Positions 19,921 to 28,816 of a stretch of 64,000 bases of DNA are shown here, piece by piece. Both the position numbers and the translations under genes were made by a program. The stretch lies in assembly GCF_028021195.1 (NCBI RefSeq), contig NZ_CP115668.1:1240001-1304000 (forward strand). Reading direction: 5' to 3'. This DNA comes from Cutibacterium equinum (GTDB lineage: Bacteria > Actinomycetota > Actinomycetes > Propionibacteriales > Propionibacteriaceae). Positions within the stretch are counted from its first letter, which is position 1, and every line of letters begins with the position of its first letter. Below the pieces are notes generated by a model, which was not told where the DNA came from, did not search any database, and saw only the letters and a list, made by a program, of their open reading frames with translations.

Positions 19921-19997
19921 CGCGGGGTGGAGCAGTTCGGTAGCTCGCCGGGCTCATAACCCGGAGGTCACAGGTTCAAATCCTGTCCCCGCTACCA
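19921..19997 (+). tRNA. Initiator tRNA-Met (anticodon CAT)
   Basis: 77 bases including encoded CCA. Anticodon CAT at 19955-19957 sits in a stem closed by GGG/CCC pairs, the mark of an initiator. The 5' base C1 is unpaired with T72, also initiator-specific, and the T arm is CAGGTTCAAATCCTG. Its 3' 33 bases are repeated at 28784 and 33402, so it serves as an island insertion site. Confidence 0.96.
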
Positions 19998-20292
19998 CTT
20001 CCCCGTCAGCCTCAGGGCTGGCGGGGATTTCTTCTACCCTTGCGGGCAGCAGTGAAGCGACGTCGACATCAAGAAATTCAGCCGCATGAAACAAGTCGCC
20101 TAAAGACCACCCAATCTCGCCACGAAGTTTTCGGCCGGCAGCCGCAGGGGTGATCCCCAATGCCCGCCCGAGTTCCACGCGCGTCAGTCGTCTGCGGAAC
20201 ATTATCAAGTTCACCGTGATGCCCACCGCTTCATCCGCCGTGTAGGTAGAGAGTGCTCCTTGCTCACGAAGTGCCTCATACGTCTTAGCCAT
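19954..20292 (-). CDS. Small HTH (XRE-like) regulator reading into the tRNA
   Basis: 112 residues. Residues ~25-80 hold a Cro/CI-like helix-turn-helix (RRRLTRVELGRALGITPAAA, GRKLRGEIGWSLGDLFHAAE). The C-terminus VVAGTGFEPVTSGL is the antisense translation of the tRNA 3' part, and the stop codon lies on the complement of the anticodon stem-loop. This ending is a familiar trace of genes that straddle attachment sites. It is divergent from the xis-like gene across a region with three copies of AACGATAC, probably its own operator. A role as repressor of the island is inferred. Confidence 0.8.
   Translation of the reverse strand: MAKTYEALREQGALSTYTADEAVGITVNLIMFRRRLTRVELGRALGITPAAAGRKLRGEIGWSLGDLFHAAEFLDVDVASLLPARVEEIPASPEADGEVVAGTGFEPVTSGL
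19964..19996 (+). repeat. Attachment-site repeat copy 1 (tRNA 3' end)
   Basis: 33 bases of the T arm and acceptor stem, starting GAGGTCACAGG and ending CCCCGCTACC. Identical to 28784-28816; two mismatches to 33402-33434. It marks the left end of island 1. Confidence 0.85.
20001..20030 (+). terminator. Terminator downstream of tRNA-fMet, inside island 1
   Basis: CCCCG-T-CAGCC pairs with GGCTG-G-CGGGG, then ATTTCTTC. It sits four bases after the tRNA CCA and inside the antisense coding region of the HTH gene, so the island supplies a new stop signal for the tRNA. Confidence 0.65.
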
Positions 20293-20325
20293 GCTGCGAG
20301 CGTAGCAACAGTTCCACACAATCGC

Positions 20326-20380
20326 AACGATACGATCAGTATCGTTCAAGCTTGACGTACCTCTAGCATTGAACGATACT
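20326..20380. promoter_or_regulatory. Operator and divergent promoter region of island 1
   Basis: AACGATAC-GATCA-GTATCGTT (20326-20346) is an inverted repeat; a third half-site AACGATAC is at 20372-20379. On the plus strand TTGACG (20352-20357) and GATACT (20375-20380), 17 bases apart, form a promoter whose -10 box overlaps the third half-site. The ATG at 20388 is seven bases further on, so the mRNA would be leaderless. A weaker minus-strand promoter (TTGCGA, N17, TACGCT) would also give a near-leaderless HTH mRNA. Confidence 0.65.
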
Positions 20381-20387
20381 TTTACGC

Positions 20388-20654
20388 ATGATCCTTGACG
20401 ATCGCGAATGGATGACACCTCCTCAAGTGGCAACAGTCATCCCCAACACGACACCGCAGGCGGTACGTCGATGGGCTGCCGATGGCTATTTAGAGGGGGC
20501 CTTTCGCACCCCGTCAGGCCGATGGCAAATCCCATGGTCGGCAGTCGTCGCAATCTTGGGGTTTGACCCACGCCGCGCCGAATCTGAACCGTCGACGTCA
20601 GATGGCCAGACGACTCTTTTTGATACGACTTCGCGAGTTGGTGAGCTGGCATGA
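20388..20654 (+). CDS. Excisionase-like HTH protein
   Basis: 88 residues. Residues ~8-58 form a MerR/HTH_17-like fold (WMTPPQVATVIPNTTPQAVR, RWAADGYLEGAFRTPSGRWQ) of the kind found in excisionases. No RBS precedes the ATG, in line with leaderless translation. It overlaps the next gene by four bases (ATGA). It might bend DNA for excision or simply regulate the operon. Confidence 0.75.
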   Translation: MILDDREWMTPPQVATVIPNTTPQAVRRWAADGYLEGAFRTPSGRWQIPWSAVVAILGFDPRRAESEPSTSDGQTTLFDTTSRVGELA

Positions 20655-21841
20655 GTTTGGTTGCGATCACGTGGGCGATCTCCTGTGATGTTCCGGATTC
20701 CACGACGAAACTGACGCTGTTGATGTTGGCTGACAAGGCTGGTGACGATGATCGTGCGTGGCCGAAGGTTTCGACGTTGATGGGCGAGGTTCAGGCGTCG
20801 AGGTCGACGATTATGCGGTCGTTGAAGTGGTTGGAGGCTGAGGGGCTGATCACACGTGAGCAGGGCTTTGAGCGTTCCGTGTTCGGCGGGATGCGGAAGA
20901 CGAACAGCGTGTATCAGTTGATGATCCCCGAGAAGATTTCGCGGGCTCGGGTGCGGGATCGGCACCCTCAAGAGGTGCGTCCTTTGAGGGGTGTTGTGGG
21001 GTCGGATGAGCGTGGTGTCACCGGTGACACGGTTGAGGTGGCCGAGGATAAAGGGCCTAGTCAGTCCCAATGTGTCATGGGTGACACAACGGAGGCACCC
21101 GAGGACGAAGTGCCTAGTCAGTCCCAATGTGTCATGGGTGACACAACGGAGATACCCGAGGACAAAATGCCTAGTCAGTCCCAATGTGTCACCGGTGACA
21201 CATTGGGTGACCGTTGTGTCATGGGTGACACATCCGTTGTGTCACCGGTGACACAACGTATTAAGGAAGAACCCTCACCTAGGAACCCATCCCCTCCCAA
21301 CCCTCCCCTGCCGGCGTCGTCTGTGTCGGCGTCGACGGCGACGCCTGGACTGGACGGGTCGGGGCAGGACGATTCCAGTAAGTCGACCGTGGCGGATCGG
21401 GTTGACACGTCGGCCCAGGAGCTCGACTGTGACGCGGGTGTGGCTGACTGGGACCTGGTGCGTGAGTGTCTGCCTGAGCCGATGCAGGTCCTTGATGATG
21501 TGGGCGCTGCCCGTCTGACTCCGATTCTGGCGGCTTTGACGGCTGGTGGATGGTCGCCTCGACAGGTGCGCAACCATCTGCAGGCCCAGCCTTTGCCGGA
21601 GTATGTGCATTCGATGGCGGGTCTGGTGTGTGCCCGGTTGCGGCGGCTGCCGGTGACTCATCCGCCGACTAGCCATGACGCAACCCCGACTCCGGCGGTG
21701 ATGACTGACGCGGACCGTGAGGTCGAGGCGCGCCGGAGGGCGTGGCTTGATGATCCGCAGGCGCAGGCCAGACATCGTCGGCAGATTGCCGAGGCGCGTG
21801 CTGTGATCCGTGCGGCTCGAGTCAGTCAGGACGTCTCGTGA
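20651..21841 (+). CDS. Replication-initiator-like protein with internal origin repeats
   Basis: 396 residues. Residues ~1-95 are a winged HTH of the HTH_36 type (LTLLMLADKAGDDDRAWPKV, VQASRSTIMRSLKWLEAEGL). Residues ~120-205 are a low-complexity linker built of 19-residue repeats (SQSQCVMGDTTEAPEDEVP), because the DNA there is an array of 18-bp palindromes. A proline/serine stretch leads to a C-terminal domain (~255-396) of unknown fold. HTH plus iteron linker plus C-terminal partner domain is the design of phage lambda O, which binds iterons inside its own gene and recruits helicase. The role is inferred from architecture. A plain transcription regulator is the alternative. Confidence 0.68.
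   Translation: MSLVAITWAISCDVPDSTTKLTLLMLADKAGDDDRAWPKVSTLMGEVQASRSTIMRSLKWLEAEGLITREQGFERSVFGGMRKTNSVYQLMIPEKISRARVRDRHPQEVRPLRGVVGSDERGVTGDTVEVAEDKGPSQSQCVMGDTTEAPEDEVPSQSQCVMGDTTEIPEDKMPSQSQCVTGDTLGDRCVMGDTSVVSPVTQRIKEEPSPRNPSPPNPPLPASSVSASTATPGLDGSGQDDSSKSTVADRVDTSAQELDCDAGVADWDLVRECLPEPMQVLDDVGAARLTPILAALTAGGWSPRQVRNHLQAQPLPEYVHSMAGLVCARLRRLPVTHPPTSHDATPTPAVMTDADREVEARRRAWLDDPQAQARHRRQIAEARAVIRAARVSQDVS
21014..21255 (+). repeat. Six phased palindromic iterons (candidate origin)
   Basis: Sites at 21014-21031, 21071-21088, 21128-21145, 21185-21202, 21215-21232 and 21238-21255. Consensus TGTGTCA-NNNN-TGACACA with centre TGGG or CCGG; the first copy differs at its end bases. The first four are exactly 57 bases apart, the last two 30 and 23. 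They lie inside the initiator-like gene and specify its repeated linker. Confidence 0.85.
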
Positions 21842-28161: not shown

Positions 28162-28202
28162 GCGTTTTTGCGGTGGATCGGTAGGTGAATCCTTAGGACG
28201 TT

Positions 28203-28236
28203 GAGAGGGGGCAGACAGCGATGTCTGCCCCCTCTC
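28203..28236 (+). terminator. Strong hairpin after the L,D-transpeptidase genes
   Basis: 15-base perfect arms, GAGAGGGGGCAGACA and its complement, with loop GCGA, followed by GTTCGTGTTT. It probably ends the adhesin-sortase-LDT transcript. Confidence 0.75.
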
Positions 28237-28318
28237 GTTCGTGTTTAGGGGGTGTGTTCTGGTGGTGTTCTGGTGTGGGGCGTGTGAGTGTGTCGGTGAG
28301 GGTGTTTAGGGTTTCAGC

Positions 28319-28723
28319 ATGATGAGAATCCAGCAGGTGCAGCCGTGTCAGCAGGTCCAGCAGGTCCAGCCGTGGCAGCGGGTCCAGTCGGGTGGAATGG
28401 TTCGGCGTCGTCGCAGGTCGGGCGTGTTTCCGATGGTGTGTGGTGTGGTGCTGCTGATTGGTGGTTTGGCGGGCCTGCGGTGGTGGGTGTGGTTTGTGTC
28501 TGTGCAGCCTGCGGGTTCTTGGGTGTGGGCTGAGGGGCCGTTTCGGGTATTGCTGGGGCTGTGGTGGTTGAGTTATGCGGCGTGGGTTGGGTTGACGCTG
28601 ATGGTGTTTCATCGGCGTGTGGAGTCGCGTGGCTTTTTGGTGATGTTGTTGGTTCCGACGGTGGCGTTGGGGTTGGGTGTGATACTGCTTCCGTTCGTGT
28701 GCAGGCCTGGACGTCGCCGGTGA
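28319..28723 (+). CDS. Small membrane protein with Gln-rich N-terminus
   Basis: 134 residues, unknown family. The N-terminus is a short Gln/Val repeat (QQVQPCQQVQQVQPWQRVQ), a basic patch (RRRRRS) follows, then three hydrophobic segments (FPMVCGVVLLIGGLAGLRWW, RVLLGLWWLSYAAWVGLTLM, FLVMLLVPTVALGLGVILL) and a basic end. No clear RBS; the second Met (28322) is an equally good start. It lies after the cargo terminator and is the last gene of island 1. Function unknown. Confidence 0.5.
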   Translation: MMRIQQVQPCQQVQQVQPWQRVQSGGMVRRRRRSGVFPMVCGVVLLIGGLAGLRWWVWFVSVQPAGSWVWAEGPFRVLLGLWWLSYAAWVGLTLMVFHRRVESRGFLVMLLVPTVALGLGVILLPFVCRPGRRR

Positions 28724-28783
28724 TCACGTTACGGCGTGGACTCCGACGGCGGTCTCGGTGGTGGTGTCTAGCTACCGACACCC

Positions 28784-28816
28784 GAGGTCACAGGTTCAAA
28801 TCCTGTCCCCGCTACC
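28784..28816 (+). repeat. Attachment-site repeat copy 2
   Basis: Identical to 19964-19996. It is the right end of island 1 and the left end of island 2. The 5' two thirds of the tRNA are absent, so this is not a tRNA gene. Confidence 0.85.

Follow-up and report, generated by a model that had tools for sequence, protein, structure and literature searches.

Cis-mobilizable elements (CIMEs) are defined, in an account that also describes their accretion in tandem (PMC5704250), as relatives of integrative and conjugative elements (ICEs) that have lost the genes for integration and transfer and kept attL and attR. Sizes of 1.2 to 13 kb are given for CIMEs in PMC7563491, where classical CIMEs carry cargo and those of Streptococcus salivarius lie furthest from the target gene. 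In Actinobacteria, ICEs with a type IV secretion system (T4SS) and a MOBF relaxase are known and are, in the same source, generally assumed not to replicate autonomously (PMC3218068), and ICE-type clusters have been noted in Propionibacterium freudenreichii (PMC5644110). Here, we compared with these systems an 8.85 kb island without an integrase gene, island A (19964-28816), which occupies a tRNA-Met(CAT) gene of Cutibacterium equinum within a window of 64,000 nucleotides (positions 1240001-1304000 of a single contig, NZ_CP115668.1, of 2,510,028 bases; coordinates below are those of the window). Island A is most likely a CIME, i.e., the left end of an ICE of a Propionibacteriaceae family in tRNA-Met which lost its integrase and transfer genes and forms a tandem with island B, probably the older of the two.

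Like the streptococcal CIMEs, as these are described in the sources above, island A has att sites, has no integrase, relaxase, coupling protein or VirB4 gene, and shares one target gene with a second unit. Its content and its size also fit a CIME. It differs from the streptococcal examples in being actinobacterial and in still having an initiator and a regulator, and, unlike the S. salivarius CIMEs of PMC7563491, it lies nearest to the target gene. The full-length relatives of island A resemble the T4SS/MOBF ICEs in having a TrwC relaxase, a VirB4-like protein and a coupling protein; island A itself has none of these and does not carry the integrase, relaxase and T4SS genes that make up such an ICE. 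Unlike the ICEs as portrayed in PMC3218068, however, these relatives carry a phage-O-like initiator at their tRNA end.

Island A is the inner unit of a tandem array

The tRNA-Met(CAT) gene (19921..19997, plus strand; ARAGORN) receives its 3' end, attL, from island A. As the initial annotation had reported, the 33-base core formed by the 3' part of this gene (att copy 1, 19964..19996, plus strand) recurs exactly at 28784..28816 (copy 2, plus strand), and the two copies, identical over 33 bases and no further, enclose the 8.85 kb. What had been missed is a third copy at 33402..33434 (plus strand), which differs from the tRNA gene at 2 of 33 places, compared to 0 of 33 for copy 2. The site at 28784 is therefore an internal one with a second island, B, behind it, and copy 3 is the outermost attR, the displaced original end of the tRNA gene, at which the right chromosomal flank begins. 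Together, island A and island B (28784-33434) make up an insertion of 13.4 kb. A pattern search of the whole genome allowing up to 2 mismatches found the core at three sites only, all in the tandem array, and 100 shuffles gave no match with up to 3 mismatches.

A strong hairpin follows each att copy (all plus strand), and the tRNA gene recreated by each unit thus seems to have received a new terminator from that unit. The hairpin just 3' of the tRNA gene (20000..20027; predicted RNA fold -26.2 kcal/mol) comes from island A, and similar sequence lies behind the tRNA in two congeners, G003 and G006 (by eye). The one behind copy 2 (28821..28860; predicted RNA fold -34.0 kcal/mol) was probably the earlier tRNA terminator, from island B. 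The third (33438..33481; RNA fold -28.5 kcal/mol), which aligns with the sequence immediately behind the tRNA in G001, G004 and G007, is the original chromosomal terminator, which the insertion has left 13.4 kb away from the tRNA. On the assumption that the tRNA gene is where new units enter, island A would be younger than island B, and gene conversion could be an alternative reason for the exactness of copy 2. The base composition of island A showed no strong difference from the flanks.

The left end of island A is shared with a family of ICEs

From the tRNA gene onward, island A consists of a divergent regulator, an xis-like gene, an O-like initiator, an adhesin, a sortase, two L,D-transpeptidase-like genes and a gene for a small protein, and all eight listed frames are open. 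Profile matches bore out the earlier gene list, i.e., a helix-turn-helix (HTH) regulator, an excisionase-like protein (by a weak match), an initiator with repeats and a set of surface genes. The regulator (19954..20292, minus strand; 112 amino acids from ATG) is a Cro/CI-like HTH protein whose gene overlaps the att core with its end; it matched BetR (E 1.3e-4) and the phage-repressor profile phrog_4583 (E 5.6e-9), and its homologues hold the same position in other elements. The xis-like gene (20388..20654, plus strand), also conserved in position among elements, encodes a small HTH protein of 88 amino acids with weak matches to the excisionase profile phrog_66 (E 8.5e-4) and to BldC/HTH_17. 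Between these two divergent genes lies an inverted repeat (20338..20380, arms at about 20338-20349 and 20369-20380), whose DNA fold (z -2.88) was equalled in 0 of 200 shuffles and which is likely the operator.

The initiator gene (20651..21841, plus strand) encodes a phage O-like protein of 396 amino acids with matches to HTH_36 and to phrog_1032/391 (E 4.4e-17 for phrog_1032), and it is the single such match in the genome. Within it are six iteron-like palindromes, GTGTCA(CC/TG)GGTGACAC (21010..21255, plus strand), the first four of which are spaced 57 bases apart. A 57-base in-frame tandem repeat was also noted here (21010-21202), with six iterons in this initiator versus three in the Cutibacterium avidum homologue. 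In a PHROGs scan of seven island A proteins (the adhesin was left out), matches were obtained for the regulator, the xis-like protein and the initiator, plus an amidase match over an SH3 part only.

To find relatives, we searched 391 genomes of the order, mostly one genome per species among the relatives, with the initiator (E 1e-6) and obtained matches in 12, including C. equinum itself. A regulator homologue at a tRNA gene, followed by xis and rep, was present in 8 of the 11 others (G005, G008, G070, G140, G218, G283, G293 and G327), while G100, G231 and G315 had initiator-type matches only. Eight genomes (G008, G070, G100, G140, G218, G283, G293 and G327) were read over longer stretches, and direct repeats of a tRNA end delimited five elements, of about 40.4 kb (G008), 46.9 kb (G070), 33.4 kb (G140), 31.3 kb (G327) and 26.0 kb (G218); no delimiting direct repeats were seen in G293 and G100, and only a duplicated tRNA in G283. 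This comparison of related islands with and without an integrase, which the initial annotation had proposed, showed a same-family tyrosine integrase adjoining attR in four of the five delimited elements, G070 being the exception. The four integrases (G008, G140, G218 and G327) are mutually 41-64% identical. They lie 26-40 kb from the regulator-xis-initiator module, beside the opposite att site, which places the integrase in the part that island A lacks.

Two of these elements use the tRNA-Met core found here, with 32 of 33 (G140) and 33 of 33 (G327) places identical by eye. G140 and G327 in tRNA-Met, and G218 in tRNA-Lys, belong to another genus of Propionibacteriaceae. The initial annotation had argued that its idea of a borrowed integrase would fall if homologous islands at the same place had an integrase that was simply lost here, if no circle was ever detected and if the repeats in relatives had diverged too far to recombine. 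The comparison approaches this situation, with integrases in the same tRNA in G140 and G327, except that these belong to another genus and that the repeats here are still exact.

In the family, genes for secretion and a TrwC relaxase occupy the region between the left end and the integrase, and G327 has Pfam matches for a TrwC relaxase (E 3.3e-83), a T4SS coupling protein (E 1.4e-60), a TraG-type P-loop protein and TrbL. Its TrwC relaxase matched in six of seven elements, G327 counted; the remaining one, in G283, is on a contig that ends early. In the congener G008, the module lies at another tRNA-Met and is followed by transpeptidases, adhesin, sortase, VirB4-like and coupling-protein genes, relaxase, ParA and a tyrosine integrase of 285 amino acids, next to which the tRNA end is repeated exactly over 39 bases. 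The G070 element, in tRNA-Met between exact 37-base repeats, has an adhesin, a sortase, secretion genes and a relaxase, no PF00589 match between its repeats, and a transposase-like gene (by eye) about 150 bases from attR. G293 has a left end like that of G070 and, on another contig, a family integrase beside a diverged tRNA-Met core, where the flank shares 79% identity with the G070 flank; we infer that the two G293 contigs carry one element. Judged from these sequences, the integrase has probably been lost more than once in this ICE family, of which searches of open-licence papers showed us no description.

Three further observations were made at these elements. In G218, a further regulator-like frame reaches into attR from behind (L095:14222-14836), suggesting a second tandem element in tRNA-Lys (by eye). 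G283 has two tRNA-Met genes 5.4 kb apart with an exact 79-base stretch in common (L089, 1733-1807 and 7173-7249), the second of which carries the left end of the element. In G140, a 567-amino-acid frame across and behind attR (L098:160-1863) is large serine recombinase-like (by eye) and points to yet another element at that site.

No transfer genes at the site and no family integrase in the genome

Ten proteins of the G327 ICE (TrbL, a lipoprotein, VirB4, VirD4, relaxase, a zeta-like protein, an AAA protein, a 270-amino-acid protein, ParA and integrase) gave no tblastn match at E 1e-3 in window positions 19001-34500, in agreement with the earlier statement that the island has neither integrase nor relaxase. 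In the whole genome, PF00589 gave four matches, none at the island A site. Two are short recombinases taken as Xer from their length and their presence in all nine Cutibacterium genomes; the others are frames of 398 amino acids, in a 16 kb stretch that also contains a tRNA-Ser, and of 197 amino acids, in a stretch with a tRNA-Ala. Neither of the latter two was matched by the family integrase profile at E 0.001, and neither was taken as a helper integrase of that family.

The profile, built from the four integrases, scored only 75 and 53 bits in the C. equinum genome, which is Xer level and within the range of all nine Cutibacterium genomes, compared to 382, 258 and 234 bits for members outside the alignment and 477 bits for one inside it. 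PF00239 resolvases were not found in the genome, and neither was a TrwC relaxase, in a search that was positive in only 1 of 14 control genomes. With no family integrase, PF00239 resolvase or TrwC in the genome, island A seems unable to move as long as no related ICE enters the cell. The initial picture of a mobile tRNA island with its own initiator and no integrase, which would need a recombinase from elsewhere, is supported. The helper integrase that was to be looked for elsewhere in this genome was not found.

The tRNA-Met site in other Cutibacterium genomes

In three of eight congeners (G001, G004 and G007), the site is free of both islands, and what lies behind copy 3 in C. equinum, the hairpin terminator included, there adjoins the tRNA. 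Decay is seen at this site in G003, G005 and G006, which retain degraded pieces of the regulator or the initiator, with regulator remnants in G003 and G006 and an initiator remnant also in G003. The roughly 30 kb at the G003 site (C1:1361582-1391477) include, besides the regulator remnant, ParA-like and nonribosomal peptide synthetase-like genes (labels by eye) and, near the far end, an L,D-transpeptidase remnant, with no PF00589 match in this stretch.

A counterpart is found in C. avidum (G005), where a related, integrase-less left end with three palindromes lies at the same tRNA. No second att core was found there with up to 3 mismatches in 21 kb of sequence, and the adhesin frame is shortened and stop-bearing. 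Identity to C. avidum is uneven, indicating a mosaic: at the DNA level it is 88% for the left flank, 84% for the right flank, 93% for the start of the initiator and 82% for the next stretch, and at the protein level 54% for the regulator and 49% for xis.

Surface genes and right end of island A

The surface adhesin (21941..25075, plus strand) has six T-Q ester-bond (VaFE) repeats, as expected of a T-Q ester-bond surface protein, with matches to PF18202 (E 1.4e-180, 591.6 bits) and NF033903 (E 7.7e-194, 633.1 bits), and T-Q relatives exist among solved structures. It ends in a hydrophobic C-terminal anchor; signal and anchor were assigned by eye. Its N-terminal region has Cys and Gln motifs like those of thioester domains. 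In class II thioester domains, as described in PMC6194298, the Cys lies in a [YFL]C-hydrophobic-hydrophilic motif and the Gln in a hydrophobic-Q-hydrophilic motif. By motif reading, FYCAD is present in the adhesins of the window, C. avidum and G008, and AQR in those of the window and G008, and in C. avidum only beyond the stop; the G070 adhesin has CIDP and FQRM, with an Ile before the Cys that departs from the class II Cys motif. No PDB match to the adhesin N-terminal part was found by sequence or profile, and the Pfam thioester model did not match the adhesin even at E 10.

Downstream lies a sortase gene (25157..25861, plus strand; PF04203, NF033748), for which the nearest model is class F, below cut-off (71 of 166 bits). 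It is followed by an L,D-transpeptidase-like gene (25861..26934, plus strand) whose product has no Pfam match of its own and is 76% identical to proteins of G008 to which the following gene is likewise similar, and by a gene for a protein with two SH3 domains and a YkuD L,D-transpeptidase domain (26941..28161, plus strand; PF08239, PF03734). The last gene (28319..28723, plus strand) encodes a small protein with a hydrophobic stretch, which matched a protein encoded in the right half of the ICE in G008 (tblastn E 8e-8; 17/47 identities).

Adhesin and sortase genes were present in four of seven full or partial ICEs (G008, G070, G283 and G293), directly before TrbL in G070, G283 and G293 and between initiator and secretion genes in G008. 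Given this position, they may act in mating and not in adhesion of the host, although plain surface cargo is as fair a guess. TIE-pLS20, a thioester-domain adhesin, is encoded within the conjugation operon of plasmid pLS20 (PMC8092201), much as adhesin and sortase stand just before TrbL in three relatives of island A; as described there, however, a sortase gene is missing from pLS20 and the adhesin contains Cna domains, while island A has T-Q ester-bond repeats and a sortase of its own. A bolder reading, which we regard as unlikely though worth stating, is that the thioester-like, ester-bond-reinforced adhesin and the sortase of these actinobacterial ICEs form a self-contained mating device able to bond donor to recipient cells, and that the truncated island A, which has kept this device along with an origin of replication and att sites that match, is a hitch-hiker whose host becomes more suitable as a partner for an ICE that comes in. 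If this were true, the integrase and relaxase of that ICE would carry island A away.

Island B

Between copies 2 and 3, island B spans 28817-33401 with four genes on the minus strand: a sensor histidine kinase (29302..30297), an OmpR-type response regulator (30261..31169), a DsbD-TlpA-like redox protein (30973..32631) and a thioredoxin-like protein (32638..33198; PF00085; a lipoprotein by eye). Matches to the response regulator begin near residue 78, so that translation probably starts downstream of the position listed. The Dsb-like gene was found, at E 1e-30, in one of eight congeners, G008, beside homologues of the histidine kinase and response regulator and away from this tRNA.

Probable origin of island A and alternative explanations

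Satellites such as phage-inducible chromosomal islands and Staphylococcus aureus pathogenicity islands have an integrase of their own, phage-linked interference or packaging genes, and a divergent repressor, xis, an initiator and an origin near one att site, and the regulator-xis-rep order of island A resembles theirs. The initial annotation had taken the island to be a small replicon or phage satellite by nature, a view that found no support, since full-length ICEs have this module as their left end. A satellite or minimal integrative replicon that never needed an integrase of its own, borrows that of a helper ICE or phage, and induces and replicates itself with the regulator, xis, initiator and origin it has kept would suit the open frames of these three genes, the exact att copies and the related integrase-less island at the same tRNA in C. 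avidum. Nevertheless, we consider it improbable: the same genes form the left end of full ICEs, no family integrase is present in this genome, and, unlike such satellites, island A has no integrase at its site and, in the seven proteins scanned against PHROGs, no matches to phage-linked interference or packaging genes. The initiator matched none of 72,556 plasmid records and only 3 of 50,697 phage records, each partially, in the N-terminal part and with 29-37% identity, and neither the initiator nor the SH3/YkuD protein had a confirmed relative in viral contigs. The C. avidum copy, without a second att core (up to 3 mismatches) in 21 kb and with a shortened, stop-bearing adhesin frame, suggests decay rather than a second stable satellite. 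Excision and integration by host XerC/XerD-like recombinases is even less plausible, to the point of being barely credible. Two short tyrosine recombinases taken as Xer are encoded in the genome, but the core is a tRNA 3' end which the genome has at this site only, and in relatives a dedicated integrase adjoins the same core.

A CIME in tandem accretion fits island A better than a satellite. An ICE would have integrated into this tRNA-Met; its genes for type IV secretion, relaxase, partition and integrase would then have disappeared, while both att sites and the left end remained, i.e., the regulator, which would repress xis and rep, the initiator with its in-gene iterons, the adhesin, the sortase and the L,D-transpeptidases. 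Homology at the left end, together with one short right-end match (28319..28723 against G008), would fit an origin by deletion rather than assembly, an internal deletion being expected to leave such a right end. An incoming related ICE could excise island A, or the A-B tandem, at these att sites and carry it along after integrating beside it. Within a deletion origin, and thus overlapping with the CIME reading, island A could also be a dead remnant with repeats that are merely recent or kept by gene conversion. The decayed remnants in G003, G005 and G006 and the absence of a family integrase from the genome would agree with this, but the eight frames are open, unlike the C. avidum adhesin, and the att copies are exact; we hold a dead remnant to be somewhat doubtful.

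Several observations weigh against a CIME derived from this ICE family or make the general picture weaker. Within Cutibacterium, no complete family ICE was found in this tRNA and PF00589 matches at the tRNA-Met site occurred in none of eight congeners; where island A ends and island B begins, a search for an integrase remnant gave chance-level matches only. The open frames of island A would also suit a compact working element. Its right-end match to G008 is short, and the gene is inverted relative to G008. Adhesin and sortase were unmatched in G140, G218 and G327. The 16-base iteron palindrome was absent from seven of eight other elements and common to C. avidum only, with one copy in G008 outside the initiator, and conservation of the putative origin is claimed with C. 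avidum only. G008 is itself distant from G327: its TrbL, VirB4 and VirD4 were unmatched by the G327 counterparts at 1e-8, and its VirB4-like protein fell below the Pfam cut-off (20.9 versus 25.8 bits). At the tRNA-Met site, the right flanks of G002 and G008 are too diverged to be called occupied or empty, and the distance from the tRNA terminator to the next shared stretch is 0.5-0.65 kb in G001, G004 and G007 versus 0.17 kb in the window, indicating from sequence comparison that the right flank itself is also slightly changed.

An integrase-less tRNA island is thereby explained by a concrete parent family, with its missing parts named. The array suggests that tandem accretion of ICE remnants, known from streptococci, also shapes a tRNA hotspot in Cutibacterium. 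Furthermore, ester-bond adhesins with a private sortase are linked here to actinobacterial ICEs, so that a role in mating becomes testable.

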